Origin: a virus
DNA length: 25,808 nucleotides
Virus record (IMG/VR): IMGVR_UViG_3300042388_000255
Span: 1-25,808 of that record
Direction: 5' to 3' (one strand)
Shown: piece after piece, positions 2,854-25,315 of the stretch
Numbering within the stretch: position 1 is the stretch's first letter
Layout: every line of letters begins with the position of its first letter
Made by a program: the position numbers and the translations under genes
The notes under the pieces: generated by a model
What the model was told of the DNA's origin: nothing
Seen by the model: the letters and a program-made list of their open reading frames with translations, nothing else
Databases searched by the model: none

Positions 2854-2856
2854 GTC

Positions 2857-4091: not shown

Positions 4092-4100
4092 GGCGACACA

Positions 4101-7088: not shown

Positions 7089-7103
7089 GGGCGCGAACAG
7101 CGA

Positions 7104-7316: not shown

Positions 7317-7332
7317 TTAAAGGAAATTCAAC

Positions 7333-8331: not shown

Positions 8332-8345
8332 GCGCCGGTAAAAAT

Positions 8346-8558: not shown

Positions 8559-8784
8559 TGAGCGAATTCACCCGCAACACGTCGCCGCATGGGCAAAAAG
8601 AGTCAGGGGAAACCTCCTGCAATGGGATGTTAAGAAGTCCGAAATGACGCTAGATCAGTCTTTGGCGTTTATCCGGCAACAATACGCCACTCTTGCCCTG
8701 ATAAACGGCGCAATAGACGGGCGAATCCGATTCACAGGGGTCGATTGTTCGGCCCTCGACAAAGGCAAAATAAATCATGGCTAA
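8548..8784 (+). CDS. hypothetical small protein, 78 aa
   Basis: Read from ATG 8548; an in-frame TTG at 8542 is possible. The protein is basic at the N-terminus (RIHPQHVAAWAKRVRGN) and helical in the middle (TLDQSLAFIRQQYATLALINGAIDGRI). No known family. It overlaps the previous gene by 11 bases and the following fibre gene by eight, so all three are probably translated in a coupled way. A product that modifies or chaperones the fibres is possible, but nothing in the sequence proves it. Confidence 0.6.
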   Translation: MLGSERIHPQHVAAWAKRVRGNLLQWDVKKSEMTLDQSLAFIRQQYATLALINGAIDGRIRFTGVDCSALDKGKINHG

Positions 8785-10111: not shown

Positions 10112-10116
10112 AAACA

Positions 10117-10142
10117 CGCGAGACTTGTACGCAGGTCTCGCG
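10117..10142 (+). terminator. 11-bp hairpin with UACG loop, possible transcript-end or RNA-stability element
   Basis: CGCGAGACTTG at 10117-10127 pairs with CAGGTCTCGCG at 10132-10142 (one U-G wobble), leaving the four-base loop TACG. It lies six bases after the fibre stop. The plus strand has no T-run after it, so it is not a classic intrinsic terminator on this strand; an A-rich tract precedes it. It may slow 3' decay or partly terminate before the adhesin genes. Confidence 0.55.
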
Positions 10143-10253
10143 CAATTCAATTAATGAGGTGACGCAATGATTTCAAGTTTAGTAATGATGGGGGCAGCGG
10201 GGGTAAGTGGGATTTTTGACGCAAGCGCGGGATTCGCGCTGTTCGGGGGGGGA
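10141..10253 (+). repeat. direct repeat, copy 1 (leader and 5' end of adhesin gene)
   Basis: The segment holding the ribosome site (GAGGTGA at 10156-10162) and the first ~29 codons of the adhesin gene is duplicated at 11049-11161. The first 78 bases (10141-10218) are identical in both copies, and about three differences occur in the rest. The duplication carries the translation start and the N-terminal anchor, leaving the body variable. Confidence 0.9.
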
Positions 10254-11048
10254 ACCGCGCAAACCACAACCGGATATACTGACAAATATACCTATGCCAC
10301 TAATACAGTTTCTACAGGTACTCATATTATTGCGAGTTATTCATTAGCCGCGGCCGGAAATGAGACAAAAGGCATATTCTCAGGAAGTTACGCAGCCAAA
10401 TATACTTATAGCACCAACACAGTGGCCCAAGCCCCTTACCTTGGGCTGCGAAGATCAAACCTAGCGGCAGCCGGCAACGCCAGTGTCGGAATTTTCGGCG
10501 GGGGTTATACTGGTACTTTATACGCAATCACCGATAAATACACCTACGGCGGGGATGAAGTCGCACCCGGCACAGCGCTCGGGCTGGCACGATACGGCCT
10601 AGCGGCAGCCGGCAACGCAACCGTCGGAATTTTCGGCGGGGGTTATCCAGTTAGCGGAATCAGAACAACATACACCGACAAATACACCTACAGCGGCGAT
10701 GCGCGAGCACCCGGCACGGCGCTCGGACTGGCGCGGTATGAGCCAGCCGCCACCGGCAACGCCAGTGTCGGCATTTTCGGGGGGGGATATACAGGCAGCA
10801 ACTCCGCTTATGCCGACAAATACACCTACAGCGATAACACCGTCGCACCCGGAACAATACTCGGAGTCGCAACACAGGGTTTAGCCGCCGCCGGCAACGC
10901 AACCGTCGGCGTATTCGGTGGAGGACACGAAAAGCTGAACCGTACCGACATATACACATACAGCGGAGACACGGTGGTGACAGGAACGGTGCTCGGTTTA
11001 GGGCGTCATCTATTGGCTGCCACCTCATCCGCCCCCGGCGGGTTTTAA
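10167..11048 (+). CDS. kelch-like repeat tail adhesin, six repeats
   Basis: A 293-residue protein. The N-terminus (MISSLVMMGAAGVSGIF...FALFGGG, about 29 residues) is followed by six repeats of 40-48 residues built around DKYTYSGDTVAPGTALGLAR and LAAAGNATVGIFGGG, closing with ATSSAPGGF. The GxFGGG ... YxY ... R pattern is kelch-like, so a six-bladed beta propeller is the natural model. Such propellers at fibre tips commonly bind host surface sugars or proteins. The first two repeats are more diverged than the rest. Strong ribosome site GAGGTGA. The gene sits downstream of the fibres and is followed by a shorter paralogue with the same N-terminus and C-terminus. The short hydrophobic N-terminus may be a docking segment rather than a secretion signal. 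Confidence 0.75.
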   Translation: MISSLVMMGAAGVSGIFDASAGFALFGGGTAQTTTGYTDKYTYATNTVSTGTHIIASYSLAAAGNETKGIFSGSYAAKYTYSTNTVAQAPYLGLRRSNLAAAGNASVGIFGGGYTGTLYAITDKYTYGGDEVAPGTALGLARYGLAAAGNATVGIFGGGYPVSGIRTTYTDKYTYSGDARAPGTALGLARYEPAATGNASVGIFGGGYTGSNSAYADKYTYSDNTVAPGTILGVATQGLAAAGNATVGVFGGGHEKLNRTDIYTYSGDTVVTGTVLGLGRHLLAATSSAPGGF

Positions 11049-11161
11049 CGCAATTCAATTAATGAGGTGACGCAATGATTTCAAGTTTAGTAATGATGGG
11101 GGCAGCGGGGGTAAGTGGGATTTTTGCCGCAAGCGCGGGATTTGCGCTGTTCGGGGGAGGA
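11049..11161 (+). repeat. direct repeat, copy 2 (leader and 5' end of second adhesin gene)
   Basis: Second copy of the 10141-10253 segment, beginning immediately after the stop of the first adhesin gene and including the same GAGGTGA ribosome site and the same first 17 codons without change. Near-identity at DNA level points to recent duplication or gene conversion. Confidence 0.9.
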
Positions 11162-11422
11162 GCTTTATCTAATTTAACCACAAGCAAATATATCTACAGT
11201 GATGATGCAACGACAGCAGGCACAAATCTTAATGTAGAAAGATATAACCATGCTGCCGCTGGAAATAGTGTTATTGGTATTTTTGCAGGAGGTCAGTCTG
11301 CAGGCACCGGTGCTACCACAAATAAATATATTTATAGTGATAATGCTAATGTAGTAGGTACAAATCTTAATGTAGGAAGGTATAATCATGCCGCCACCTC
11401 CTCCGTCCCCGGCGGATTCTAA
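11075..11422 (+). CDS. short kelch-like adhesin paralogue, two repeats
   Basis: A 115-residue paralogue of the gene at 10167. The N-terminal 29 residues are the same apart from one substitution (Asp to Ala) and the C-terminus ATSSVPGGF matches ATSSAPGGF, but between them are only two repeats (SKYIYSDDATTAGTNLNVERYNHAAAGN and a similar one). The body is visibly richer in A/T than the first copy, so it was not made simply by deleting blades from it; it looks like a different body between shared ends. Two blades cannot close a propeller alone; three subunits together would give six, matching the paralogue. It could also be a decaying remnant, though the frame is intact. Confidence 0.7.
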   Translation: MISSLVMMGAAGVSGIFAASAGFALFGGGALSNLTTSKYIYSDDATTAGTNLNVERYNHAAAGNSVIGIFAGGQSAGTGATTNKYIYSDNANVVGTNLNVGRYNHAATSSVPGGF

Positions 11423-11479
11423 CCACAGTCGTGACACCACCATCCCCATTCCCATTCACCACCACCAACAGGATTCTCT

Positions 11480-12100
11480 ATGTACAAAACTAACCGTCAA
11501 AACCATGACTTTCAAATCGCCTACTTTCTCGCGGGCTCATGCCACACGCCAGACGGTGCTTATGCCCTGCTTTGCGATCAGCTAGACGACCGCAAACTGG
11601 CGCTCAAAGCCGCCGAAGCTGGCGCACTACGCGAGACGGCTACCCGCATGCGTATCGCGCGACGCATGGCCAGTGAAGACGAAGCCGAGGTGATCGAAGC
11701 ACAAGCCGATTTAGCTGAAATTGAGATGCACCAAGAACTGACCGCTAAGAATGTCGCCGCGGCAGAGGCCGAAGTGGCCTATATCCAAAGCTGCATGGAC
11801 AAGCTGGAACCTTTGCGCCAATACGCGCATTTACCGCTAGCGCAAGCACATGAAGCCGCGCAACAAGAGGAATGGAAGCAAGAACTGATTCTGCGCGCCG
11901 AAAACTATCTACTGACTACCGGCACAATCAGCACAGATCATTTTGCCACGATGCGCATGCACCCGGAATTTGTTACGGCGATCATGCCGGCCATTCAAGC
12001 GACCCGGCAACTTATGCAAAGTGAAACCGGACAAATGCAGCTTTTGAGCAAAAAACCGATGGCGCAATTGGTGGGCTTTGAACAGTTGTTACTGAACTAA
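11480..12100 (+). CDS. coiled-coil protein at end of fibre operon, function unknown
   Basis: A 206-residue protein with AGGA at 11470-11473. Residues 10-35 contain a compact start (DFQIAYFLAGSCHTPDGAYA), then residues about 38-125 are Ala/Glu-rich helix (ALKAAEAGALRETATRMRI ... AAAEAEVAYIQSCMDKL), very likely a long coiled coil or helical hairpin; the C-terminal 80 residues are also helical. No family is certain. Its place just after the adhesins and just before an intrinsic terminator fits a fibre-assembly chaperone or an accessory structural protein. The 57-base gap in front of it is CACC-rich and low in complexity. Confidence 0.7.
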   Translation: MYKTNRQNHDFQIAYFLAGSCHTPDGAYALLCDQLDDRKLALKAAEAGALRETATRMRIARRMASEDEAEVIEAQADLAEIEMHQELTAKNVAAAEAEVAYIQSCMDKLEPLRQYAHLPLAQAHEAAQQEEWKQELILRAENYLLTTGTISTDHFATMRMHPEFVTAIMPAIQATRQLMQSETGQMQLLSKKPMAQLVGFEQLLLN

Positions 12101-12122
12101 ACGCCCCTAACGCACGCCCCTG

Positions 12123-12146
12123 ACCCGCTCCTGTAGCGGGTTTTTT
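12123..12146 (+). terminator. intrinsic terminator after fibre operon
   Basis: ACCCGCT at 12123-12129 and AGCGGGT at 12135-12141 form a GC-rich 7-bp stem with a five-base loop, followed by a run of six T (12141-12146). It lies 22 bases after the stop of the coiled-coil gene and 18 bases before the next putative promoter box. Confidence 0.9.
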
Positions 12147-12164
12147 ACGCCTGTCACGCGCACA

Positions 12165-12208
12165 CGGAAAACGGCACGCATTCAAGCCGCGTCATTCCGT
12201 CAAAATTG
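12165..12208 (+). promoter_or_regulatory. putative activator-dependent late promoter, copy 3
   Basis: CGGAAAACG at 12165-12173 and -10-like CAAAAT at 12201-12206 at the common spacing. It lies directly after an intrinsic terminator, which strongly suggests that transcription restarts here. Expected start near 12213, about 31 bases before ATG 12244 of the first lysis-region gene. Confidence 0.65.
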
Positions 12209-12243
12209 CGACATCTTTTTACTCACCCTTGCAAGGAAAAACC

Positions 12244-12741
12244 ATGGGCGAAAACTTTGACCATGAGACTTTACCGCAACGTAAGCTATCCATTAAATCC
12301 ACGCTCAGGATTTTCTTGCGGAATTGCCGTGATTTGATTGTTTACCCCGACATTGCCGCTGCGCGATTTGCCGTTGCGCTCAATGGGCTGTCTTGGTCGT
12401 TAATGCTGATTTTGGCGAGTAGCGATGTACTCCTTGACCCTGTTTTTTCTGGTTTATCGCAAATAGGCGATAGAACCTTTTGGGCGGTGTGCATGGGTGC
12501 AATAGGCGCGGTGCAAATGTTCACGCTTATTGCCCGTGTGCCGCCGTCCTGGCACACCTCGCTGATTGCGTTTACCAGTCTGATCATGTGGACGTATGTA
12601 ACCGTGTCGCTTATGTTATCTGCAATCACCAATGTTGCCGTACTCTCTACCACGGGCGTTATTGCATGGTTGTCGATTTGGATTTTTGTACGTTCGCGCT
12701 TTGGCAATGAGCCGGACATGCGTAGAAGAATAACGGATTAA
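12244..12741 (+). CDS. four-helix membrane protein, holin-region candidate
   Basis: A 165-residue protein from ATG 12244 (AAGGAA at 12232-12237; an in-frame TTG 12229 lies too close to that site). The first ~35 residues are basic and soluble (KLSIKSTLRIFLRNCRD). Four hydrophobic segments follow, at about 45-67 (FAVALNGLSWSLMLILA), 80-100 (FWAVCMGAIGAVQMFTLIA), 106-128 (SLIAFTSLIMWTYVTVSLML) and 132-152 (VAVLSTTGVIAWLSIWIFV), then a basic tail (RSRFGNEPDMRRR). It heads a two-gene operon just before the spanin/endolysin operon, so a holin or holin regulator acting in the inner membrane is likely from context; no family motif proves it. Confidence 0.7.
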   Translation: MGENFDHETLPQRKLSIKSTLRIFLRNCRDLIVYPDIAAARFAVALNGLSWSLMLILASSDVLLDPVFSGLSQIGDRTFWAVCMGAIGAVQMFTLIARVPPSWHTSLIAFTSLIMWTYVTVSLMLSAITNVAVLSTTGVIAWLSIWIFVRSRFGNEPDMRRRITD

Positions 12742-12743
12742 TC

Positions 12744-13154
12744 ATGGAACTATTTGGGTTGGACACTTTGGGGGAAATGGCCGTAGCAGCGACCGCGGGC
12801 ATAGGCGGGCTGGCATTTGCTGCACAGCGATTAGTTAAAACATGGTCAAGCACCTCGGTGGCGATCAATACCGATGGCGCATCCAATGAAATTCTCAATA
12901 CGCTGCAAGAGGAAAACAGGCTATTGCGAGAAAGTGAGCGAAGTGCGCGCAATGACTTAAACGAGGCTATGCGCAAGATGGGCCGCTTGGAAGCCATGGA
13001 GGCGCGGGTTGATGAACTCAAAGCGGAGATCGTTAAAATGGAATTGCGCTATGAAAAACAAGAGGTACTTATGGCGGATTTAGTGCGGCAAAATACCACG
13101 CTTATGCTCAAACTGGAAAAATGCGCCAAGTTTCTTGCCACGCAAGAAGAATGA
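12744..13154 (+). CDS. membrane-anchored coiled-coil protein, lysis-region
   Basis: A 136-residue protein two bases after the preceding stop. Residues about 11-32 are a weakly hydrophobic Ala/Gly-rich segment (MAVAATAGIGGLAFAAQRLV) compatible with one membrane pass, followed from about residue 47 by an unbroken charged coiled coil (LNTLQEENRLLRESERSARN to the C-terminus). The shape is like a type II membrane protein with a long helical stalk, similar in outline to i-spanins, but a better i-spanin is encoded at 13271. It may assist the four-helix protein encoded just upstream (holin partner or antiholin). An intrinsic terminator follows. Confidence 0.65.
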   Translation: MELFGLDTLGEMAVAATAGIGGLAFAAQRLVKTWSSTSVAINTDGASNEILNTLQEENRLLRESERSARNDLNEAMRKMGRLEAMEARVDELKAEIVKMELRYEKQEVLMADLVRQNTTLMLKLEKCAKFLATQEE

Positions 13155-13179
13155 ACAAGCCATTTAGCGAAAGTCCATA

Positions 13180-13206
13180 AACCCGCTCCCCTAGCGGGTT
13201 TTTTTT
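13180..13206 (+). terminator. intrinsic terminator
   Basis: AACCCGCT (13180-13187) pairs with AGCGGGTT (13193-13200) around a five-base loop, running into eight consecutive T (13199-13206). The stem is nearly the same as that of the terminator at 12123. It separates the membrane-protein operon from the spanin/endolysin operon and is followed 15 bases later by another promoter box. Confidence 0.92.
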
Positions 13207-13221
13207 CGCCCTGAATTCCCC

Positions 13222-13265
13222 CGGAAAACGGGCAGCGTCATGGCCTATTACATCCATCAAAATAG
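13222..13265 (+). promoter_or_regulatory. putative activator-dependent late promoter, copy 4
   Basis: CGGAAAACG at 13222-13230 and -10-like CAAAAT at 13258-13263, the same hexamer as copy 3 at the same spacing, directly after an intrinsic terminator. The expected start (near 13270) is at the ATG of the i-spanin gene, implying a leaderless message or use of a later start codon. Confidence 0.65.
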
Positions 13266-13270
13266 GCTGC

Positions 13271-13666
13271 ATGAATTGGATAGTAACCCGCACCCCTAGA
13301 TTTTGGCTGGAAACCGGCATGATGCTGATTATCGTCATGTTAGCCGCGGCATTATTTGTTGCCTTCCTGGAAATCGAAAACAAAACCCTCGCAATTAAAG
13401 TGGTTGAGGCGAATTTGCGGACAGAAAAATTCGTAACGAAATCACTGTCGCAAAGTATTGAATTGCAAAACGCGACGGTAACGTATTTGGGCGAAGAGCT
13501 TATGCGTAAGCGGGGCGATGTTGAAAAGGGATTGCTTGAAATTCGCCGCTTGCATGCGGCGGATAAACAAAAAGAGCAATGGTTGCGCGAATTTACGCCG
13601 TCGAATGATGAATGCGCAGATATGAGATTGCTGGTTGATACTTTCCGGGCATGGGGCAAAAAATGA
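13271..13666 (+). CDS. Rz: i-spanin (Rz-like inner-membrane spanin)
   Basis: A 131-residue protein with a short basic N-terminus (TRTPRFW), one transmembrane helix at about residues 17-36 (MMLIIVMLAAALFVAFLEI) and a periplasmic coiled coil (residues about 38-110, NKTLAIKVVEANLRTEKF ... EIRRLHAADKQKEQWL). This is the layout of Rz-type i-spanins, which join a lipoprotein partner to fuse inner and outer membranes at the end of lysis. The partner overlaps its 3' end. ATG 13271 has only a weak AGG upstream and would coincide with the predicted transcript start; ATG 13319, with TGGAA upstream, is an alternative but would lose the positive residues before the membrane helix. Gene symbol by role, not by clear sequence identity. 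Confidence 0.75.
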   Translation: MNWIVTRTPRFWLETGMMLIIVMLAAALFVAFLEIENKTLAIKVVEANLRTEKFVTKSLSQSIELQNATVTYLGEELMRKRGDVEKGLLEIRRLHAADKQKEQWLREFTPSNDECADMRLLVDTFRAWGKK

Positions 13667-13935
13667 TGAAATTAACGGTATTGGGCGGTCTGGTTATCGC
13701 GTTTATATCCGGCTGTCAAAGTCAGCCGGTGCAATTGCCGGAAGTGGTTAAAGTGCCGGTTTTAATGCCGTGCATAGAGCGTCATTTAGTGCCAATAAAA
13801 CCGACTGAATGCGTGCCAGCGAATGAGAAAAATCCAATTGATAAACTGCGCTGCTTGCTACTGGATTTGTTGCGAACTCAAAAATACGCGCAAGAGCTTG
13901 AAATCATCGTAACCGCCTGTGTAAAGGAAAAATAA
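13663..13935 (+). CDS. Rz1: o-spanin lipoprotein (Rz1-like)
   Basis: A 90-residue protein with a lipoprotein signal: a hydrophobic stretch (MMKLTVLGGLVIAF) and the lipobox ISGC, so the mature protein starts at a lipid-modified Cys18 with the outer-membrane-sorting residue Gln next to it. The mature part begins Pro-rich (QPVQLPEVVKVPVLMP) as in Rz1 o-spanins and carries further cysteines. ATG 13663 overlaps the i-spanin stop as ATGA with GGGG at 13653-13656; the in-frame ATG 13651 would add four residues. Unlike lambda Rz1, it overlaps by only a few bases instead of being embedded. It should sit in the outer-membrane inner leaflet and bind the i-spanin. Confidence 0.8.
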   Translation: MMKLTVLGGLVIAFISGCQSQPVQLPEVVKVPVLMPCIERHLVPIKPTECVPANEKNPIDKLRCLLLDLLRTQKYAQELEIIVTACVKEK

Positions 13936-13938
13936 GCC

Positions 13939-14391
13939 ATGAAATTATCTGCCCATTTTAGTTTGGATGAATTAATCGCCAGTGAAACGGCTTTGCGCCG
14001 CGGCATTGATAACACGCCTAACGCGAGTGTTATCGCTAACTTGAAACGACTGGCGGAAATGCTGGAAAAGGTGCGCGCTGTATTGGGGCAGCCCATGCAC
14101 ATTTCTTCGGGCTATCGCTCTCCCATGTTGAATGCGGCGGTGGGCGGTGCGAATAACCCACCTTCTGCGCATATAAAAGGCTTGGCGGCAGATTTTGTTT
14201 GTCCTTCCTACGGTAAGCCATTGGCAATTTGCCGACACTTGGAATCAGCGGGAATTCTGTTCGATCAAATTATCGAAGAGGGCACATGGGTACATTTTTC
14301 CATTGCCGAAGAGGGGAAAAAACCCCGTAGAGAGGTTTTAACCGCGCGGTTCAAAGACGGCAAAGTGTCTTATTCAAAAGGTTTATCGTGA
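13939..14391 (+). CDS. endolysin, M15 family zinc peptidase
   Basis: A 150-residue enzyme of the VanY/M15 type that cuts peptide bonds in peptidoglycan. The signature is clear: SGYRS (Arg60), then SAHIKGLAADF with zinc ligands His78 and Asp85, and EEGTWVHF with the catalytic Glu (114 or 115) and third zinc ligand His119. Length matches single-domain M15A endolysins of phages such as T5. No signal peptide, so release through a holin is expected. It sits three bases after the o-spanin gene (AAAGGA at about 13923-13928), completing a spanin-spanin-endolysin set. Confident by catalytic motif. Confidence 0.92.
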   Translation: MKLSAHFSLDELIASETALRRGIDNTPNASVIANLKRLAEMLEKVRAVLGQPMHISSGYRSPMLNAAVGGANNPPSAHIKGLAADFVCPSYGKPLAICRHLESAGILFDQIIEEGTWVHFSIAEEGKKPRREVLTARFKDGKVSYSKGLS

Positions 14392-14404
14392 AAGGAATAT
14401 AGCG

Positions 14405-14800: not shown

Positions 14801-16468
14801 ATGAAAGCTCATTCTGAATATTTGAAACACGACACGGTTGCTGCTGATAAATTTGTTGCCAGCATCAAAGACGCATCAAAAACCGAAGGTCAAACTTTTG
14901 ATTCTGCCGCTGCGCATGCCTTTGCGTCGGAAACAATTAACCGGATGCCGAACGCGAAATTGCCGCTTAAATTGCAGGCTATTTTCGATGACGTTGGCTC
15001 CAAGAATTCCGGCACCATTATGCGTGCGTTTGAAAACGGAATTTCTGCTTATGAAAAGGCGCATGGCTGCGATATGCCTGCCGATTTGATGGAGCAAGCG
15101 ATTCATTCGGCTTTTGCTACCACCAATGAAGCCCGCCGCGGCAATCACGCATTCGATAGCGCGAATAGCAACCACATGGATAATTTGGCCTTGCAGCCGA
15201 ATCGTGCCGTGGTAGCCATTTTGTCAACCATGGGTGAGGCAATTCCCTTTGCGCATTACCTGCCCGCTGACATTGGCTCTAACGAGGCTATTCTGGCGAT
15301 CATGTCGCATCAAGCCGGTAGCAACTATGGTTCCTACCCGCAAAACGGCGGCATGGATGGCATCATGTCTGGCGATCCTTACATTACCTCTTCGCGCGTG
15401 CATCAATGCACTATCGACGTTTCCGGTAACGCAACGGGCAAGCTAACCGCCAAACAAGCGACCATTGAAACCTGTGATCCGGCGGCTGCCGTTGTGCCAT
15501 TGGTGCGCGGTCGTAGCGTTGTTTATGTCAATGGCATGATTGCGGCGCAAGAAGTCTCCCAATCGGGTTCTGGCCTGTCTTCAGTTTCAGGTTCGTTCAA
15601 AATCGGCAGTACCAACTATTTGATCGGTGGCTCCATCAATACCGACACGGGCGAGATTGCTTTAACCTCAACTCCCGCTTTGCCCACCGCTACCCCGTTG
15701 GTTGTGGAAGGCTTTGTTGATTATGAGCGTGACCCTGCTTTGATCCCGCTGATTATCTCAAACGTGGACACCTTCAAGATTCACGCGAAGGCATGGAAAG
15801 CGCGTACTCGCCAGTCGATTGATGCTCGTATGCAAATGTCGAACGAATTGGGCCTTGACCCGTATAGCGAAAGCGTACTGGCCATTCAAAATCAGTTTGC
15901 CAATGAGCGTCATTACGAGGTGTTGGCTAAGGCGCGTCGTTTAGCGGTAAATAACCAACTGACCTATGATTTTGCCTGGGCCAATCAAGGCAACTTCAAG
16001 AACCGCGCTGATATTTGGCTGGACTTTGCTACCCCGCTGGGTGCCGCTTCGCAGAAAATGGCGATTGATACCATGAACCACGGTATTACCCATTTGTATG
16101 TCGGTCGCAACATGGCATCCATGATGCAATCGTTGGATGCAAATATGTTCGAGTCTTCGCAAATTTCTTCCCGTCCCGGCATTCACCGTGTTGGTCGCCT
16201 GTTCGGTCAATATGATGTGTATTACACCCCGAAATTGGTGGAAGAGACTTCAACCAGTTCGCAGGTCTTGGCAATTGGCCGTGCTACTGACGTAACCCGT
16301 AACCCGTTTGTGCTGGGTGACGCCGTACCTGCCACGGTGATCCCGTTGTATGTCGGTGACGACCTGAAAAACGGTGCAGGCTTCTATGCCCGCAACTTTA
16401 CCGCCGTCAATCCGCACGCACCTAGCGCCATGGGCTGCGCTCTAATCGACGTGATTAACTTCAACTGA
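14801..16468 (+). CDS. major capsid protein, HK97 fold, gp23-like
   Basis: A 555-residue protein. The helical N-terminal ~120 residues look like a removable prosequence, and FDS motifs occur at 33-35 and 118-120. The body has the layout of myovirus major capsid proteins: a spine-helix region around 340-385 (FKIHAKAWKARTRQSIDARM ... NELGLDPYSESVLAIQNQF) parallels the gp23 block in which capsid subunits carry long helices, and the C-terminal half ends in alternating strands (VIPLYVGDDLKNGAGFYARNF). An insertion-like beta region (about 205-310) may decorate the surface. Cleavage near residue 120 by the protease would leave a ~435-residue mature subunit. A hairpin terminator-like structure follows. 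Assigned by pattern, size and the sheath genes next door. Confidence 0.8.
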   Translation: MKAHSEYLKHDTVAADKFVASIKDASKTEGQTFDSAAAHAFASETINRMPNAKLPLKLQAIFDDVGSKNSGTIMRAFENGISAYEKAHGCDMPADLMEQAIHSAFATTNEARRGNHAFDSANSNHMDNLALQPNRAVVAILSTMGEAIPFAHYLPADIGSNEAILAIMSHQAGSNYGSYPQNGGMDGIMSGDPYITSSRVHQCTIDVSGNATGKLTAKQATIETCDPAAAVVPLVRGRSVVYVNGMIAAQEVSQSGSGLSSVSGSFKIGSTNYLIGGSINTDTGEIALTSTPALPTATPLVVEGFVDYERDPALIPLIISNVDTFKIHAKAWKARTRQSIDARMQMSNELGLDPYSESVLAIQNQFANERHYEVLAKARRLAVNNQLTYDFAWANQGNFKNRADIWLDFATPLGAASQKMAIDTMNHGITHLYVGRNMASMMQSLDANMFESSQISSRPGIHRVGRLFGQYDVYYTPKLVEETSTSSQVLAIGRATDVTRNPFVLGDAVPATVIPLYVGDDLKNGAGFYARNFTAVNPHAPSAMGCALIDVINFN

Positions 16469-16480
16469 TAATCATGTTGT

Positions 16481-16517
16481 GCGCTGCATGGGTTCAACCT
16501 GTGCAGCGTCTTGTTTT
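16481..16517 (+). terminator. hairpin with U-rich tail after capsid gene
   Basis: CGCTGCA at 16482-16488 pairs with TGCAGCG at 16502-16508; the inner bases extend the stem with two wobble pairs and a GGT/ACC match to a three-base loop. The downstream TCTTGTTTT (16509-16517) is T-rich but interrupted. No new promoter box follows before the next gene, so partial termination that lowers sheath relative to capsid expression is likely. Confidence 0.65.
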
Positions 16518-16537: not shown

Positions 16538-16933
16538 ATGAAATCAGTCACCATTAGCGCGCCTGTCCTGGGCGAAAGAAAAACACGCCAACAAATTGAG
16601 TCGTTATTGGAAGGCGTCAATTTGCCGGTAGAAATTACCGTAACCAATTTATCGGCGCGCCCTTTGGCGATTACCGAGTACGGCATTGATTTACTTAGCA
16701 GTCAAAACACGGCAGGCGCAAGCAAGGCCGTTTCGATCAAGGAAGTGTCTGGCCTGTTCCGGCTGGCACGTAACGCCGAATCTATTGCTGAACTCAATCG
16801 TTATGGCGAGATTATCTCGGTGGCCATTGCCGGTGAAGTCGAGGAAGTTACCGCGGCGAAAGAACCCGAAGAGACCAAGCAGCCTGACACACTCAAGCGC
16901 CGCCTACAAAACAAAGAGGGGAATAGATCATGA
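16538..16933 (+). CDS. hypothetical virion protein between capsid and sheath, 131 aa
   Basis: Starts at ATG 16538 with GGAG at 16526-16529; the frame continues upstream to TTG 16511 inside the hairpin tail, which is not a credible start. The first ~65 residues are beta-like (VTISAPVLGERKTRQQIESLL, LPVEITVTNLSARPLAITEYGI), the middle is Ser/Ala-rich, and the C-terminal 40 residues are highly charged and likely flexible (EEVTAAKEPEETKQPDTLK). It ends in an ATGA overlap with the sheath gene. No family known; position suggests a neck, decoration or sheath-associated protein. Confidence 0.65.
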   Translation: MKSVTISAPVLGERKTRQQIESLLEGVNLPVEITVTNLSARPLAITEYGIDLLSSQNTAGASKAVSIKEVSGLFRLARNAESIAELNRYGEIISVAIAGEVEEVTAAKEPEETKQPDTLKRRLQNKEGNRS

Positions 16934-18582
16934 GTACCGCATTCGTTCGACAATTAGGCGCGGAGTCAGGCGTTCAGCTTAATCCGTTAGTCGATAATTC
17001 TGAAATTCCGACTAACGATAATTCCGATCAGGTTTTCGGCATTATCATGCGCTCCACACGGGGCCGCATTGACAAGCCGTTCGTAGTGGATCGTGGCAAC
17101 GTCATGACCCGCTTAGGCAATGGCCGTGAAGCGGGCGTAGCAAACGATATTAACGCCAACAACGAGGCATGGATTCAAGTCGTTGAAGCCTTGAACAACG
17201 GCGCTTATTCTGCAGTGGTGCAGCGTTTAGTCGGTGATTCCACCGTCAAGTTTGCCGTAGCTACCGTAAGCAGCGATGCGATTAACTTTACCGTGTCTGA
17301 TACGGCTCCCGTTAGCACACATTTGATGTCGATCAAGCATTTAGATTGCTTCAATGATGGCATTACCATTACGTTGCGCGCGGAAGAAAAGAAGGTTGCC
17401 GGTGTTGCAGTGGCGAATGATTACGTTACGCTCAGTCTGCGCGATAACGAGGGAACTTTGCTGTATGAATTCTATGGTTCGCTCAAAGCGGATGCTGTTG
17501 ACGATTACGGCAACACGGCATTCCTTGAGGAAGTCATTGCACGCCAAACAGATGCGGTGATCGTGGATATTCCGCAAACCGACACGCTGGAAATTGCGCC
17601 TACGTCAGATGCGTATGGTTACGATGCCACGAACGGACAGCCTAAATCGGTTACGTCTGCACTGCTGATTTGTTTCGTTGAGGGTAATCCGTATGCCAGC
17701 GGCGCGGTAGTGGACTACATGGGTGCGCGTACCAAGCTGCAAGACACACAATACAACTACGCTTACATCGCTTCCGGCGGCACTAAAACCCCCGCGTTGT
17801 TAGCACAATTGGCGCAATTGGCCTTTGATACCAATCGGCAACTGCGCTTTGATATTCCGGGCGACCTGTCGGTTAGCGCGGCGATTGCATGGGTTGAGCA
17901 ACTCAGCTTTGGGGCAAACAAAACCTCACACCTGTTGCATGCTTTTTGGGCGCCGTTCAAATCCATTGACCCGACCAACATTCATGGCAAGGGCTATATC
18001 GGTACTTCGGCGCTGAATATCGCTTATGCCTGTCTGCGCAATGCCGCAACTAATTCACTGGGCTTTGCGCCGAAAAATTACCCGGTAGCAGGGCGTGAAT
18101 GGCCGGTAAGCCGCCGTGGTATCACGCAGACTTTGACGCCTAGCAATCAAGACCTGAATGCGCTGGCCCGTGCCAAGATTAATCCGGTCGTTTATGAAGT
18201 CTATACCGGTGGCGGACGCACCGTGTTCCGTGATTCCCTGACCTGCGCGTTAGTCGAATCCAGCCTCAAAAAGCTGATTTCGGTTGCAGATATGTCGGCT
18301 TCGGTGGATGACGCCGTAACCCGCTATGGCAAGGATTGTTTGCAATTACCCATGCAGATTGCCATTAAGAAGTTCAAGGATTTCTTGACCACGTATTTTT
18401 CTGACGCGGAGGCTTCGGGCTGGTTAGTGCCAAGCAACGATCCTTCTATGGGCGGCAAGGCGTGGATGTTCGATGTACGGCCTAACGCGGTGCGACCTTA
18501 CGACCGCATGGACGTGAATTATTCGCTGCGTTATGACGGTGCAGTGCGTCAAATCCACGTTACACAAACTTTGGTTAAGTAA
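16930..18582 (+). CDS. contractile tail sheath protein (plain form)
   Basis: A 550-residue protein with the sheath layout: after an N-terminal extension (QLGAESGVQLNPLVDNSEIP), DQVFGIIMRSTRGRIDKPFVV matches the aG..erGP.n.P block at the start of sheath proteins, and NNEAWIQVVEALNNGAYSAVVQRL the NGg...yvvRV block. The C-terminal domain (about 430-550; LQLPMQIAIKKFKDFLTTYF, GWLVPSN, a final strand VNYSLRYDGAVRQIHVTQTL) corresponds to the conserved inner sheath domain that packs on the tail tube. Ribosome site GAGGGG at eight bases from ATG 16930. Sheath subunits stack around the tube and contract to drive it through the envelope. Its paralogue at 18607 is clearly homologous over nearly its whole length. 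Confidence 0.85.
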   Translation: MSTAFVRQLGAESGVQLNPLVDNSEIPTNDNSDQVFGIIMRSTRGRIDKPFVVDRGNVMTRLGNGREAGVANDINANNEAWIQVVEALNNGAYSAVVQRLVGDSTVKFAVATVSSDAINFTVSDTAPVSTHLMSIKHLDCFNDGITITLRAEEKKVAGVAVANDYVTLSLRDNEGTLLYEFYGSLKADAVDDYGNTAFLEEVIARQTDAVIVDIPQTDTLEIAPTSDAYGYDATNGQPKSVTSALLICFVEGNPYASGAVVDYMGARTKLQDTQYNYAYIASGGTKTPALLAQLAQLAFDTNRQLRFDIPGDLSVSAAIAWVEQLSFGANKTSHLLHAFWAPFKSIDPTNIHGKGYIGTSALNIAYACLRNAATNSLGFAPKNYPVAGREWPVSRRGITQTLTPSNQDLNALARAKINPVVYEVYTGGGRTVFRDSLTCALVESSLKKLISVADMSASVDDAVTRYGKDCLQLPMQIAIKKFKDFLTTYFSDAEASGWLVPSNDPSMGGKAWMFDVRPNAVRPYDRMDVNYSLRYDGAVRQIHVTQTLVK

Positions 18583-18606: not shown

Positions 18607-21600
18607 ATGGGTAATCCATTTACGCGGCAATTGGGAAAAGAATCGGGTGTCCAGCTTAACCCACTGGTTGATAACTCTGAAATACCGGTAACAGACACGG
18701 CAGATCAATCCTTCGGGATTGTGCTGCGTAGCACACGCGGGCGCATTGACCGGGCGTTTTCGGTTGATCGAAGCAATGTGGAAACCCGTTTAGGTAATGA
18801 AACCAATCGAGTCATTGGCGCGGATAATGAGGCGGTGATTCAAGTGGTTGAAGCCTTGAACAACGGCGCTTATTCGGCAGTGGTACAGCGTTTAGTCGGT
18901 GACGATTCCGTGGTTAAGTATGCCGTGGCGTCATTCGTCGGCGCGGGCGAAACAGTGATTGAACCTGACCCTGTTGCCCCGGATGCGCATTGGGATAATG
19001 TTGTACTTGCTATGCCGATGGATCAGACCGGTGAGCCTAGTTGGGATGAACCAACAATTACTTCAGGAACGCTGCCGAGCCATCAGAATTGGCAGGCTAT
19101 CGCTTGGAATGGCACTGTGTTCTGTGCAGTAGCTTCCTATTCAAACGTAGCCGCGACATCACCTGACGGTATCACATGGACTCAAAGAACGATGTCGAGT
19201 TCTAAGAATTGGCAGGCTATCGCTTGGAATGGCACTGTGTTCTGTGCAGTAGCTTCCTATTCAGTAGCAGTTACATCGCCTGATGGAATCACATGGACTG
19301 AAAGAACGTTACCGATCTCTCGGAATTGGCAGGCTATCGCTTGGAATGGCACTGTGTTCTGTGTAGTAGCTTCCTATTCAGACATAGCAGTTACATCGCC
19401 CGATGGTATCACATGGACTGAAAGAACGATGTCGAGCCATCACTATTGGCAGGCTATCGCGTGGAACGGTACGGTATTTTGTGCAATAACGTCTGGTTTC
19501 AACGTAGCCGCGACATCGCCTGATGGAATCACATGGACTGAAAGAACGTTACCGATCGCTCAGGAGTGGTACAGTATCGCGGGGAACGGTACGGTATTTT
19601 GCGCGATAGCTTTCAATTCATCCGTGGTCGTGACATCTCCGGATGGTATCACATGGACTCAAAGAACGTTACCGAGCGCTGGGGGTTGGCATGCTATCGC
19701 GGGGAACGGTACATTGTTTTGTGTAGTAGCTTACAGTTCATCCGTGGTCGTGACATCTCCGGATGGTATCACATGGACTCAAAGAACGTTACCGAGCTAT
19801 CTGTCTTGGCATGCTATCGCGGGGAACGGTACATTGTTTTGCACGATAGCTAACAGTACAAACGTAGCCGCCACCATCACTCCCGGTTACGCTTTCACCG
19901 ATTTAAAAGGTCATACGATAACGAACACCGGCGCGGTGATCAGCACAGCGCAAAGTAAGTTCGGCGGCGCGAGTGGGTATTTTGATGGTGATTACGTTGA
20001 AGTAGAAGAGTCGGCTGATTTTGCTTTTGGCACTGACTTGTTTACGATTGAAGGGTGGGCTAGGCCAGCAGGTGCTGGCACTGTAGCAGAAACCAGAACC
20101 TTGCTATCACTCGGTACATACGAAACTGAATCATACCTAGCGATTGAGCACAAAATCAGTGCGCAGGGTGCCTCTAGTTTATGCGCTTCAACTTTCAAGT
20201 CAGACGCTGACCCCTATTGGGATAATGTCGTACTTGCTATTCCGATGGATCAGTCAGGTACGCCTAGTTGGAATGCGCCGACGATTACTCAAATGACGTT
20301 GCTATCTAGCGGAAATTGGCAATCTATCGCATGGAATGGTACTGTTTTCTGCGCGATTGTAAAAAATTCAGCGACGGCTGCTACATCATCTGATGGTGTT
20401 ACATGGACGTTAAGAACGCTGCCAGTTTCGTTAAATTGGGCAAGTATTATATGGAATGGCACGGTATTTTGCGCTGTTGCAATGAGTTCGTCGCAGTCAA
20501 TAGTCTCAACAAACGGAATTGATTGGACAATCGGAACGATGCCAGTTAGTGCGAATTGGTATGACGTAGCATGGAACGGCACGGTGTTTTGCGCAATAGT
20601 CTATGGGCCAACCACAGTCGCAGCTACATCTACAAACGGCATTGTTTGGACACCGCGGACGATGCCAGTAAATGAATATTGGAGCGCCATTGCATCGAAC
20701 GGTTCAATATTTTGCGCAATCATAACTGGGCACAATAAAGCATATACGTCTTCAGACGGTGTTACCTGGACTGCGCAAACACTACCTGCTAGTACAGGGT
20801 GGTCTGATATTGCTTGGAACGGTTCAGTTTTTTGTATTATTCAAGCGAGTGACCTAACGACCGCTGCAACATCTCCTAATGGTATAGCATGGACGGCGAG
20901 AACGCTCCCAGCTGCAGCACGATGGGATTCAATTGCGAGTGCTGGTAGTGTTTTCTGTGCAGTTTCGCATAATACCGCGCCCAATAAAGGTGCAATCTCT
21001 TCGGATAATGGGGTTACATGGACATCGTTTAATTTATTGGGCGCTCAACCTTCATATTGGTCAGTGGCGTCAAACGGTGCATCATTTATGACACTTGCAT
21101 ATAGTTCTGCCATAGCCAATATTATCGCCCCCACCTACGGCTTCACCGACCTAAAAGGCCATACGATAACGAACACCGGCGCGGTGATCAGCACAGCAAA
21201 AAGTAAGTTCGGCGGCGCGAGTGGATATTTCGCTGACGCCTCACGTTGGTTAACAACTTCACATGTCGATTACGCATTTGGTACAGGTGATTTTACCATA
21301 GAAATGTTTGCATATTTCATGACAGTCGCAAACAAATACTTCTTCAGTACAGAAGTCACGAACGGACAATACTTCTATATGGGTCATACGGATGCGGGCG
21401 CATTAATAGTCTATGGTTCTCATATGTTAGACGTTTTGGTCGTTAGTAATATATTACGTGATAGATGGTATCATATTGCTTTCACACGCGCCTCCAATGT
21501 AGTGCGTTTATTCGTAGATGGTGTCGAACGCGCTAATACAACGACCACTTTCAACCTTACGACGCAATCACTTTTCATCGGTGGTACTACTACTGGTCTC

Positions 21601-23373
21601 CTTCCTTCCGGTAGTTGGATGAAAGGTTACATCGACGACCTCCGCATCACCAAAGGCGTTGCGCGTTACACGGCCAACTTTACACCACCGACAAAATCCT
21701 ACCTTACTTCGGCTACACCCACCTACTCAAAAGTCTCGACGGCGGAGGTTGCGTTGAGTGCCGTTGACCCCTGGAAATTCTTTGCCTTACAACGGAACGG
21801 CACTGCGCTAACCCTTGCTGTTGATGGCGTGGCAGCGACGCCACTTACGCTAGCGGTTAATCATGCGTTTTCTGCCAACAAGCCGATTCTGATTGGTGCC
21901 GGCAGTGACGCTACCGGTACAGCAAGCGGCTACTATTCGGGCTATTTGGATGACCTACGTATCACCAAAGGCGTAGCACGCTACGCTTTCCCGTTTGATC
22001 GGCCCACCATTCCATTCTGGCACGCCATTGTTGCACCGCCTGTCGTGGAGGTTGAAGAAGACCCGGAAGGGCCTGCAGACATTACTTTTATCACGGCGGA
22101 AAGCCTGAGCGGCCTCAATGCCTACCTGCTCGCCGTCAAGCATCTTGAGTGCTTCAATGATGGTATTCGGATTGAAATTCACGCGGATGAAAAGCGGGAA
22201 AATGGCAGCAATATCGCCAACGATTACATTACGCTGAATATCCTTGATCGGGATAGCGCACCGTTGTATGCGTTTTACGGCTCCTTGCGGCAAGATGCCG
22301 TGGACGATTACGGACAAACCGCCTTTTTGCCGAATGTGGTGGCCAGTCAAACGGATTTGGTCGAAGTCAACATCCCACAGGCCGGCGCGTTGCAGATTGC
22401 ACCGGAATCATTCGCGTATGGCTATCGCAGTAACGGGCTATTCCGTTCGGTGAAGTCTGGCGTGTTGAATTGTTTTATTGAGGATAATCCGTTTACGGCT
22501 TCTTCGGTCAATTACACGGCGGCATGCGACAAGCTGAAACAATCGCGCCTGCATTACACCTATTTGGCTTCGGGCGGCACGCAAGACTTGGCACTATTGG
22601 CGCAACTGGCGCAACTGGCGTTTGATACCAATCGGCAATTACGCTTTGATGTACCGGGCAATATGACGGTCAATGCCGCACTGGCATGGACTGAGCAATT
22701 AAACTTTAGCTCACGTCCTTATGCCCATTTGCTGCAAGCCTTTTGGGCACCCTTCAAGTCACTGGATTATGCAGGGCGTTACAACAAGGGCTATATCGGC
22801 ACTTCGGCGTTAAATATCGCCTTTGCCTGCTTGCGCAATGCGAAGACGAACCCGCTGGGCTTTGCCATGAAAAACTACCCTATCGCGGGGCGTGAATGGC
22901 CCATTAGCCGCCTTGGTATTGCGCAGACTGTCACGCTATCCGGTAGCGATTTGAATGCGCTGGCACGCGCCAAGATCAATCCGGTGGTGCAAGAGAATTT
23001 CACGGGCGGCGTGCGAACGGTATTCCGGGATTCTCTGACCCAGGCCGATGTTGAGTCGAGTCAAAAGATGCTGATTTCGGTGGTGGATATGTCCACTGCC
23101 ATTGATGCCGCCGTAACCAGTTACGGCAAGGGCTGTCTGCAATTGCCTATGAAAGTGGGCATTGCAAAGCTGCACGACTTTATGGCCGCGTATTTTCTCA
23201 ATGCGGAATCGTCCGGTTGGTTGGTTCCTAGCGAGGAATTAAACGGAAAAGGCTATCGGTTCGATGTGCGGCCTAATGCTAATCTTCCCTATGAACGCAT
23301 GGATGTAACGTATTCGCTCCGTTATGACGGAACCGCTCGCCAGATTCATGTCACCCAAACCCTGAGCAAATAA
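18607..23373 (+). CDS. giant tail sheath paralogue with nested LamG and beta-propeller insert
   Basis: A 1588-residue second sheath protein. Residues 1-111 and 1158-1588 align throughout with the plain sheath at 16930 (shared phrases VQLNPLVDNSEIP, VEALNNGAYSAVVQRLVGD, KHLECFNDGI, SLRYDG.ARQIHVTQTL), so it keeps every sheath part. Between them lie about 1045 extra residues: LamG part 1a (128-146), propeller 1 (147-426, seven repeats around WNGTVFC and SPDGITW Asp boxes), LamG 1b (427-534), a complete second unit 535-1036 (LamG 2a, seven-repeat propeller 554-842, LamG 2b ending DDLRITKGVARYTANF), LamG 1c (1037-1138, ending DDLRITKGVARYAFPF), and an acidic linker (VEVEEDPEGPAD). LamG and Asp-box folds commonly bind glycans. 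Ribosome site GAGAGGG. The insertion site corresponds to a variable loop in the plain form (about residues 106-130), so it probably faces outwards. Incorporation into virions is inferred. Confidence 0.85.
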   Translation: MGNPFTRQLGKESGVQLNPLVDNSEIPVTDTADQSFGIVLRSTRGRIDRAFSVDRSNVETRLGNETNRVIGADNEAVIQVVEALNNGAYSAVVQRLVGDDSVVKYAVASFVGAGETVIEPDPVAPDAHWDNVVLAMPMDQTGEPSWDEPTITSGTLPSHQNWQAIAWNGTVFCAVASYSNVAATSPDGITWTQRTMSSSKNWQAIAWNGTVFCAVASYSVAVTSPDGITWTERTLPISRNWQAIAWNGTVFCVVASYSDIAVTSPDGITWTERTMSSHHYWQAIAWNGTVFCAITSGFNVAATSPDGITWTERTLPIAQEWYSIAGNGTVFCAIAFNSSVVVTSPDGITWTQRTLPSAGGWHAIAGNGTLFCVVAYSSSVVVTSPDGITWTQRTLPSYLSWHAIAGNGTLFCTIANSTNVAATITPGYAFTDLKGHTITNTGAVISTAQSKFGGASGYFDGDYVEVEESADFAFGTDLFTIEGWARPAGAGTVAETRTLLSLGTYETESYLAIEHKISAQGASSLCASTFKSDADPYWDNVVLAIPMDQSGTPSWNAPTITQMTLLSSGNWQSIAWNGTVFCAIVKNSATAATSSDGVTWTLRTLPVSLNWASIIWNGTVFCAVAMSSSQSIVSTNGIDWTIGTMPVSANWYDVAWNGTVFCAIVYGPTTVAATSTNGIVWTPRTMPVNEYWSAIASNGSIFCAIITGHNKAYTSSDGVTWTAQTLPASTGWSDIAWNGSVFCIIQASDLTTAATSPNGIAWTARTLPAAARWDSIASAGSVFCAVSHNTAPNKGAISSDNGVTWTSFNLLGAQPSYWSVASNGASFMTLAYSSAIANIIAPTYGFTDLKGHTITNTGAVISTAKSKFGGASGYFADASRWLTTSHVDYAFGTGDFTIEMFAYFMTVANKYFFSTEVTNGQYFYMGHTDAGALIVYGSHMLDVLVVSNILRDRWYHIAFTRASNVVRLFVDGVERANTTTTFNLTTQSLFIGGTTTGLLPSGSWMKGYIDDLRITKGVARYTANFTPPTKSYLTSATPTYSKVSTAEVALSAVDPWKFFALQRNGTALTLAVDGVAATPLTLAVNHAFSANKPILIGAGSDATGTASGYYSGYLDDLRITKGVARYAFPFDRPTIPFWHAIVAPPVVEVEEDPEGPADITFITAESLSGLNAYLLAVKHLECFNDGIRIEIHADEKRENGSNIANDYITLNILDRDSAPLYAFYGSLRQDAVDDYGQTAFLPNVVASQTDLVEVNIPQAGALQIAPESFAYGYRSNGLFRSVKSGVLNCFIEDNPFTASSVNYTAACDKLKQSRLHYTYLASGGTQDLALLAQLAQLAFDTNRQLRFDVPGNMTVNAALAWTEQLNFSSRPYAHLLQAFWAPFKSLDYAGRYNKGYIGTSALNIAFACLRNAKTNPLGFAMKNYPIAGREWPISRLGIAQTVTLSGSDLNALARAKINPVVQENFTGGVRTVFRDSLTQADVESSQKMLISVVDMSTAIDAAVTSYGKGCLQLPMKVGIAKLHDFMAAYFLNAESSGWLVPSEELNGKGYRFDVRPNANLPYERMDVTYSLRYDGTARQIHVTQTLSK
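19087..19860 (+). repeat. tandem 117-120 bp repeats encoding propeller 1 blades
   Basis: Seven repeats, one per blade. A 57-base block at 19087-19143 is identical at 19207-19263 and differs by a single base at 19324-19380. Another 57-base block is identical at 19621-19677 and 19741-19797. Such DNA-level identity over short units indicates recent unit duplication or gene conversion. Propeller 2 (about 20266-21132) has the same protein pattern but no comparable DNA identity. Confidence 0.92.
19912..19976 (+). repeat. LamG direct repeat, matched at 21160-21224
   Basis: Thirty-eight bases at 19912-19949 are identical to 21160-21197, and after two differing bases a further 25 bases (19952-19976 and 21200-21224) are identical. 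The repeat encodes HTITNTGAVISTA and SKFGGAS, the start of the LamG core in both modules, and lies about 1.25 kb apart in the same gene. It is a ready substrate for homologous recombination that could delete or duplicate a module. Confidence 0.9.
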
Positions 23374-23397
23374 CGTCTTTCAATGAAAGGAAATACC

Positions 23398-24471
23398 ATG
23401 AATTTAACTGAACTGTTGCGCGATGCCTTGCGCCCCAAGGTCGAACTGGCCCCCGCGTTTGATTCCGCTGATGCAGCCGAAGGCGAACCCGCCAATTATG
23501 TCGAACAAGATATTGCCCTCAAGGCGCTGTCTGCCGTGCATGAATGGGCCATGCGTGATGATTTGGACGTGGGCGAGTCGTTCACGGATCGCCTGTTGAT
23601 GTTGATGGTCGGCGTTGCCGATGAGAATAAAGACGGTGAAATTTCCGAAGACGAACAAGCGTTGATCGAGATTGCCCTGAATGCCGTGTTTGATTACATG
23701 GTAGAGAAAGGCGTGCCGGAAGATGATGCCGGCGCATTGCTGAACGATTGGGACGCAGACGCAGGTGATCGTGTACGCGAATTGCTCAATACTGCATTGT
23801 CGGATGATGATGATGAGGCCATGTCTGATATTGACGGTTTCATCTTCGGTGCAGAGGCACAATCTTCGCTATTCGATTCCGCCAAGCAGGAAGACGAAGA
23901 TGAAGACGATGATGAGGATGATGATGACGAGGATGACCCTGACGGCGAAAAAGAATGGGCCAACATGCCGGAAGACGAGGACGAGGACAAAGCCTTAGAT
24001 GGTGATTTCCGTGGACATCCTTTCCGCGGCAATCAATACCGCAAGGCTAGCCGCTCTTCGGGCGCTGCCGTTAGTGCATCATCGAAAGCGAAGAAAGCCG
24101 AAAAGCATGGTAGCAAGTCTGAGCAGAAAAAAGCCCACAAAGCGGCTTATCATGCGCACGCTTCCGCCGCTAGCCAAGTGCATTCCAAAGGTGCGCGCAA
24201 GTATCACCGCAAAATGGCGAAGCTGCACGGCAAGAAAGCAGGCATGGACAAGGTTACGTTGGATTCCATTGCTTTTGATGCGACCTACAAGAAACGCATT
24301 GTTTTCCGCGCCGGCAAAAAAATCAGAGTCAACAAACGGGTGTCTGGCACGGTGCGCCGTACCGCAAAACAAAAGCAGGCGACCCGAAAAGCCTCTATGA
24401 AATCGCATAATGCCGCGGCAATGATGAAGCGCGCCAAGTCTATGCGCATGCGCCGCAAAGCAGGTTTCTAA
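23398..24471 (+). CDS. EF-hand, acidic-tract and basic-tail head protein candidate
   Basis: A 357-residue protein from ATG 23398 (AAAGGA at 23386-23391, partly within a small hairpin CTTTC-AAT-GAAAG). Residues 75-86 are a textbook EF-hand loop (DENKDGEISEDE: Asp75, Asn77, Asp79, Gly80, Ile82, Glu86). Residues about 136-198 are acidic, including a long Asp/Glu run, then GHPFRGNQYRK (207-216), a motif common in phage head-associated proteins. Residues about 217-357 are Lys/Arg/His/Ala-rich and histone-like. FDSA occurs at 21 and 159, and LDS at 289, as in the capsid and protease. A plausible model is a scaffold or inner-head protein whose basic C-terminal part meets DNA after processing; this is inferred. 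A terminator follows. Confidence 0.75.
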   Translation: MNLTELLRDALRPKVELAPAFDSADAAEGEPANYVEQDIALKALSAVHEWAMRDDLDVGESFTDRLLMLMVGVADENKDGEISEDEQALIEIALNAVFDYMVEKGVPEDDAGALLNDWDADAGDRVRELLNTALSDDDDEAMSDIDGFIFGAEAQSSLFDSAKQEDEDEDDDEDDDDEDDPDGEKEWANMPEDEDEDKALDGDFRGHPFRGNQYRKASRSSGAAVSASSKAKKAEKHGSKSEQKKAHKAAYHAHASAASQVHSKGARKYHRKMAKLHGKKAGMDKVTLDSIAFDATYKKRIVFRAGKKIRVNKRVSGTVRRTAKQKQATRKASMKSHNAAAMMKRAKSMRMRRKAGF

Positions 24472-24532: not shown

Positions 24533-25315
24533 ATGGCGAATAACCTAACGTCGCAATGGGGCACCCTTTCCCCGCACCTTATTGCCGACTTTTTTCAGGT
24601 GGACAATGATAATGTACCCATAGGCAATACCCATGTACTTGCGCCGCTGACCGACGCTAGCATGGAGATTGCTTTGAATTGGCAATCGCCGTTTGAGAAT
24701 TCCGGCGCGGAAACCAAGGCCCCGGCGTTAATGGCGATGCTGCAATCGGGATCGCTGGAACCGTTGATGGCAGGCGTCAAGATGTTGTTTGCCGGTGGCA
24801 ATGGCGAGATGAGCGCCGCGGATGCAAAGGCTAGCCGTGACCATGAAAACAGCCTACTGAGTAAATTTGCGGGTAGGTCTGGCATGACCAAGCTGAACTC
24901 GACGCAAGTGTTTACGGGCATGCCGCCGATTAAAATTCAGGTAACGGCACTATTCCGGGCGTGGCGTGACCCTGTTACTGAGGTGGAAGTACCGTATGAC
25001 CAGTTGATGCAATGGGCATTGCCGGAAGAAATCTCACTCGACGGCACGCCATTGAACCAGGTGGTCGGGGCGGCGAATGGGCAAAAAATCGGCGTGGTTG
25101 AATTGTTGATGCCGTCGAAAACCCCGGTCAAGATTGCGATGCGCTACAAGAATCGGATGTACGGGCCACTGGTGATCGAATCCATTACTAACCCGCTGGC
25201 CTCTCCCATCGACCATAAAGGCAACTTTACTGAAATGTTAGTGCCGATGACGCTCTGCACACTGACCGCGCTGGATCGCAGGGATTGGACGAATACGCGC
25301 AAACAGGCCATGTGA
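24533..25315 (+). CDS. putative tail tube, tube-initiator or baseplate protein
   Basis: A 260-residue protein from ATG 24533 (AGGAA at 24523-24527; the ATG five bases earlier leads to an early stop). The sequence is beta-rich at both ends (HVLAPLTDASMEIALNWQSPF; MPPIKIQVTALFRAWRDP) with a late YGPLVIESITNPLASPIDHKGNF followed by VPMTLCTLTALDRRDW. That end recalls P2 gpU-like tail proteins (fgpwvIesi...G....f.l.L.r.d), a fold shared by tube, terminator and tube-initiator proteins. Position after the sheath genes also fits a tube or tube-initiating protein, which is otherwise missing from the window. Exact role unproven. Confidence 0.6.
   Translation: MANNLTSQWGTLSPHLIADFFQVDNDNVPIGNTHVLAPLTDASMEIALNWQSPFENSGAETKAPALMAMLQSGSLEPLMAGVKMLFAGGNGEMSAADAKASRDHENSLLSKFAGRSGMTKLNSTQVFTGMPPIKIQVTALFRAWRDPVTEVEVPYDQLMQWALPEEISLDGTPLNQVVGAANGQKIGVVELLMPSKTPVKIAMRYKNRMYGPLVIESITNPLASPIDHKGNFTEMLVPMTLCTLTALDRRDWTNTRKQAM

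Follow-up and report, generated by a model that had tools for sequence, protein, structure and literature searches.

A giant second tail sheath gene with nested LamG and propeller domains in a phage related to P1

Introduction

Contractile tail sheaths are regarded as motors, while adhesion is assigned to fibres and the baseplate. The viral DNA analyzed here (a stretch of 25,808 nucleotides, referred to as the window) carries two adjacent sheath genes, one of ordinary size and one of 1588 codons in which the sheath core is interrupted by domains of adhesin type. How is this giant protein built, and could a sheath subunit of this kind serve as an adhesin on the side of a tail?

Genome setting and the plain sheath

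The window phage is a bacterial virus related to P1, with a contractile tail. Its genes for a Gp23-like capsid protein, a 140-aa protein, a plain sheath, a giant sheath, a gp21-position protein and a PmgG-like protein (Table 1) can be compared with the P1 order 23 (capsid), 22 (sheath), 21 and pmgG. Among the relatives are Xanthomonas phage Rb1 and replicons that carry a plasmid label, such as Burkholderia pBVIE05, which has a gene for a RepB initiator near its sheath gene; at least some relatives are therefore phage-plasmids. According to the genome records, the hosts of these relatives are chiefly beta- and gammaproteobacteria.

Table 1. Features of the sheath region of the window
Feature	Coordinates	Strand	Basis
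Major capsid protein (Gp23-like), P1 gp23 position	14801..16468	+	PF07068, phrog_1014; P1 gene order
Hairpin resembling a terminator, 3' of capsid gene	16481..16509	+	
Plain tail sheath, 550 aa, P1 gp22-type	16930..18582	+	PHROG_1036; AF2 and Foldseek
Beta-hairpin of plain sheath (108-114/117-123), turn = insertion point	17251..17298	+	AF2 secondary structure; hot spot
Giant second sheath gene, 1588 aa, 171 kDa	18607..23373	+	Open throughout
Sheath core, N-terminal part (residues 1-109)	18607..18933	+	71% to plain 1-112
Pro/Glu-rich linker 1 (residues 110-125)	18934..18981	+	Sequence
LamG1 first strand (WDNVVLAMPMD)	18982..19041	+	LamG profile 7-22
Propeller A, seven ~40-aa W/Asp-box repeats, within LamG1	19042..19893	+	
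LamG1 N-half	19894..20208	+	LamG profile 34-115; PHROG_3545 772-845
LamG2 first strand (WDNVVLAIPMD)	20209..20262	+	LamG profile 7-22
Propeller B, seven W/Asp-box repeats, within LamG2	20263..21141	+	
LamG2 remainder	21142..21690	+	LamG profile 34-214; Pfam Laminin_G_3
LamG1 C-half	21730..22014	+	LamG profile 128-211; PHROG_3545 893-977
Acidic/Pro linker 2 (residues 1137-1156)	22015..22074	+	Sequence
Sheath core, C-terminal part (residues 1157-1588)	22075..23370	+	62% to plain 115-550
P1 gp21-position protein with 130-aa extra domain	23383..24471	+	phrog_1053; alignment; P1 order
PmgG-like protein	24533..25315	+	phrog_1114

The plain sheath matched the PHROG_1036 tail sheath family (E 1.1e-126). 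Since a search of the PDB with its sequence returned no matches, the link to P1 comes from fold: an AF2 model built from a 47-sequence alignment (pLDDT 86, pTM 0.83) had as its best PDB matches in Foldseek the P1 sheath structures 8jaj, 9ay3 and 8jan (E 1e-28, TM 0.73). Comparison of profiles between the plain sheath and P1 gp22 gave a probability of 98 and an E-value of 6e-14. The plain sheath is thus predicted to have the P1-type fold, with the fold evidence drawn from this copy only.

The giant sheath gene and its nested insert

The giant gene begins 24 nt downstream of the plain gene on the same strand and its ATG is preceded by an SD-like GAGAGGG; no terminator-like hairpin was found between the two genes. 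BLASTP aligned giant residues 1-109 with plain residues 1-112 (71% identity, E 5e-42) and giant residues 1157-1588 with plain residues 115-550 (62% identity, E 9e-176), and the giant protein also matched PHROG_1036 (E 1.6e-116). These E-values rule out a likeness by chance. A single insert of 1047 residues (112 kDa) splits the core at one point. A preliminary description of the window, made from its letters, had reported a stop-free reading frame of this length just downstream of a plain 550-aa sheath, with ends that align to the plain copy around one insert and with every sheath part kept. All of this holds: BLASTP places the boundaries at the first 109 and last 432 residues, both core parts align, the sheath family is matched and conserved residues are retained (see below).

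Within the insert, Pfam identified Laminin_G_3 (E 2.3e-17). Asp boxes (S-x-[DN]-G-x-x-W) are spaced at about 40 aa, six at residues 185-384 and six at 594-799, inside two blocks of seven W-repeats that start at residues 162, 202, 241, 281, 321, 361 and 401 (propeller A) and at 571, 611, 651, 692, 732, 773 and 817 (propeller B). The final repeat of each block has no Asp box, and the repeats suggest that both propeller rings close.

The order of these modules was resolved with a LamG profile made here from natural phage LamG domains. Along the insert, profile positions 7-22 are followed by propeller A, positions 30-115, a second LamG domain (7-22, propeller B, 34-214) and finally positions 128-211. 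When stitched, LamG1 matched the profile continuously over positions 7-211 with 126 bits, compared with about 57 bits for either half alone, and stitched LamG2 matched over 7-214 with 170 bits; LamG1 halves stitched in the wrong order matched as two separate domains. The first-strand pieces score weakly by themselves (4 and 8 bits) and are assigned to the LamG domains because of the stitched scores and the alignment. In a MAFFT alignment, 21 of 21 natural LamG domains fell before and after propeller B and skipped nearly all of the propeller, and the PHROG_3545 matches in the two LamG1 halves follow one another along that profile. Together, these results lead to a build in which the sheath contains LamG1, LamG1 contains propeller A and LamG2, and LamG2 contains propeller B. 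The nested LamG and double propeller of the preliminary description are therefore both present, but the nesting is deeper than proposed, with the propellers inside the LamG domains and LamG2 inside LamG1. A joint LamG and propeller alignment, in which LamG rows were misplaced on propeller A, was discarded; LamG-only rows were clean around propeller B.

At the DNA level, identity among the repeats of propeller A is about 82%, and the 95-bp stretches 3' of propellers A and B share 91.6% identity, which points to a recent internal duplication or conversion. The blades show a dN of 0.20 and a dS of 0.54. LamG and propeller modules are common among other virion proteins, and the family suggests that the LamG domains of the insert may bind carbohydrate. 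None of the other propeller/LamG loci fetched showed a LamG domain around a propeller, and when phages were searched at the DNA level with the insert, the sole match was 73 bases long.

The insertion site in related sheaths

The insert enters at plain residues 115-116, in the turn between strands 108-114 and 117-123 of the AF2 model. In the alignment, this turn pairs with P1 gp22 residues ~110-114, inside domain III (100-242), and domain III of P1 gp22 extends outside the sheath (PMC10304247). The tube-facing helix of P1 (459-477) is distant in sequence from this site. Mapped in this way, with the plain sheath as the modelled copy, the insert should probably point outward, and the tube-facing placement that had been raised earlier as an obstacle to assembly is unlikely.

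In a first survey of 124 distinct full-length sheaths, all insertions of at least 15 aa but one fell within plain residues 100-131. The sheath hairpin is an insertion hot spot in these relatives. Its inserts include beta-repeats of 65-76 aa, a segment of ~100 aa (L339), one of ~125 aa (L304) and Methylovulum-type segments of ~260 aa, and the modules resemble baseplate, neck and head-decoration profiles. Single-copy sheaths with such inserts presumably still assemble. The single-copy sheath L304 (positions 2833-4845 of its contig) carries at the hairpin a domain of another kind, which matches head-decoration profiles, and the sheaths of Methylovulum and relatives (L340, L342 and L343; ~740-812 aa) hold glycine-rich beta-repeats in the hairpin loop.

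In its final form the set held 282 loci encoding 141 distinct sheaths, and flanks of 2.5 kb or more were present on each side for 103; many of the loci are duplicate contigs, and counts of distinct sequences are preferred. Among the 141 distinct sheaths, the window phage alone had two sheath genes or an insert longer than ~260 aa. In two other loci, L023 and L342, the sheath gene is split in what looks like a frameshift. No orthologue of the giant sheath was found in any other contig.

Duplication and constraint

The two sheaths of the window are sisters in the tree (SH-aLRT 100), with branch lengths of 0.70 for the giant and 0.19 for the plain copy; the duplication therefore took place within the lineage of the window phage. 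The giant sheath is fast-evolving, with a constrained core. It retains 32 of 33 invariant and 64 of 73 near-invariant core residues, and comparison of the two cores by NG86 gave a dN of 0.285 and a dS of 2.2, which is saturated, for a dN/dS of ~0.13. Identity to the plain copy is highest in the C-terminal handshake arm (81%), followed by the N-terminal arm and the first part of domain II (74%), and is lowest in domain III (56%). Conserved sites lost in the arms amount to 1 of 19 and 1 of 13. In the tube-facing domain I, the giant lacks K448, which is conserved, as well as K480 and K483, two positions that are commonly basic, and the tube-attachment helix has one K or R residue in the giant and three in the plain sheath (family range 1-4). 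These losses are compatible with a special position as well as with relaxed selection, and could mean weak docking or decay.

Proposed role and alternatives

On balance, we lean towards reading the giant protein as a decorated sheath subunit, present in the minority, that assembles together with the plain sheath of a P1-type contractile phage and acts as an adhesin on the side of the tail. After duplication of the sheath gene, the plain copy would have retained the structural job, while the second copy would have taken up recombining adhesin modules (LamG1 with propeller A, LamG2 with propeller B) at the turn of the domain III hairpin. Late co-transcription of the two genes is probable, and giant subunits would enter plain rings through their retained N- and C-terminal handshake arms. 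The insert would then project beyond the sheath and might aid sideways sticking of the virion to glycans of the host envelope or matrix, while plain subunits would go on driving contraction. We infer that the giant sheath is incorporated into virions at low stoichiometry and binds glycans.

The giant subunit could also be confined to a set position, for example the ring beside the baseplate or the neck, where it would act as an additional collar or an adhesin of the baseplate. The AFP and PVC particles have several sheath proteins, the minor paralogs of which are thought to act in this manner, and the altered tube-facing residues of the giant would suit a special position. However, the sequence names no such position and the handshake arms look ordinary, and this alternative is considered unlikely.

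Decay has somewhat poorer prospects. A non-virion or decaying paralog, serving as a repository for shuffled domains but without a structural function, would account for the long branch, the lost domain I residues and the absence of an orthologue in any other contig. Yet 1588 codons have stayed open behind an SD-like start, the dN/dS of the core is well below 1 and dN is below dS even in the blades, which makes this account rather improbable.

Whether the giant builds whole sheaths, as an alternative and fully decorated tail, or sits in every ring was addressed by an estimate of volume, rather than docking, from P1 dimensions (205 Å extended and 275 Å contracted, with a rise of 40 and 18 Å). 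At 40-60% packing, the shell of a fully decorated sheath would be 43-61 Å thick when extended, which is feasible, and single-copy relatives do bear inserts of up to ~260 aa on each subunit. After contraction, however, the shell would reach 69-97 Å at the 18 Å rise. If one in six subunits were decorated, a shell of 8-20 Å would suffice. A full shell is thus possible but crowded once contracted, and a mixed tail is the preferred reading. The retention of the slow-evolving plain gene also speaks against this alternative, which, for whole sheaths and for every ring alike, is very improbable.

Finally, a chimeric metagenome contig or a wrong repeat count, which the similar repeats of propeller A could promote, can hardly be the explanation, given that a second IMG/VR contig (L021), extending 2.9 kb beyond the window, is 100% identical over 7865 bp including the whole giant gene with all junctions in frame, although the two contigs may derive from overlapping reads and this agreement is support rather than independent proof.

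Comparison with known systems and significance

P1 gp22 and its block 23-22-21-pmgG resemble the window in fold, profile, gene order and the outward domain III, but P1 has one sheath gene, with no large insert. Two sheath paralogs that arose by duplication are known from the Pseudomonas phage PaBG, in which both proteins are present in the virion (PMC7412058). The PaBG copies are 58 kDa each and 38% identical, whereas the window genes are in tandem and one encodes a 171-kDa protein with adhesin-type domains. Particles of AFP and PVC also contain several sheath paralogs, but at 350-450 aa these are far too short for such an insert.

Single-copy multidomain sheaths with extra outward domains have been tabulated up to 1283 aa (PMC9230969). 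In the Type 3 sheaths of jumbo and huge phages, the extra domains are sited away from the tube (PMC9230969), but most of them are Ig-like or helical and most of the phages are large, unlike the 1588-aa LamG/propeller second copy of a P1-like phage. The hairy-tailed phage CBB has appendages along its contractile tail, for which a role at the host surface was proposed (PMC5259590); its whiskers are ~119 nm long and their gene is unknown. Phage virion proteins with LamG domains and Asp-box propellers share domains and motifs with the insert, but carry them as separate genes or tandem domains.

The literature searched, which excludes most subscription journals, held no precedent for a LamG/propeller sheath. 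The earlier statement that no sheath of this build has been described stands to that extent, but large sheaths and the PaBG pair were already known. As two-sheath phages and large multidomain sheaths have precedents, the giant is a new, extreme variant and not a new category.

A broader picture is offered more tentatively, as falling a little short of an even chance: the tail of a P1-like phage is mixed, a duplicated sheath paralog with Russian-doll LamG and propeller domains makes parts of the contracting sheath wall a lateral adhesin and the hairpin is a general plug-in site for adhesion modules. If this were true, given a paralog with more than 1000 residues of adhesin-type domains and an outward-mapping hairpin hot spot across the family, lateral adhesion of tails could be tested as a trait, and the hairpin would be a natural display site for large domains on a contractile tail. 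The nested insert is also a clear case of domains inserting into domains through recent duplication.

Other features of the window

The 362-aa gene downstream of the giant sheath gene had been a candidate for the tail tube, which was dropped when alignment and P1 gene order identified it as the gp21-position gene. Most of its counterparts in relatives encode 224-260 aa; the window protein has in addition an acidic run and a GHPFRGNQY-type domain of ~130 aa. A comparison of the 291-aa gene 3' of the PmgG-like gene with P1 BplB gave no match (BLASTP). Between the sheath and gp21-position genes of the relative L034 (9274-10257) lies ~1 kb with no listed plus-strand ORF of at least 80 aa; other relatives differ.

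A tail-fibre and lysis module at positions 6340-14400 of the window (fibres, an M15 endolysin and a spanin-like pair) separates two genes that are adjacent in relatives such as L005. The spanin-like genes overlap (13271-13666 and 13651-13935). Positions 10167-11048 encode a 293-aa protein, probably a further propeller, built of some six repeats of kelch-like type (GIFGGGY...KYTYS..T.APGT), and a short paralog of 115 aa with the same leader sequence is encoded at positions 11075-11422.
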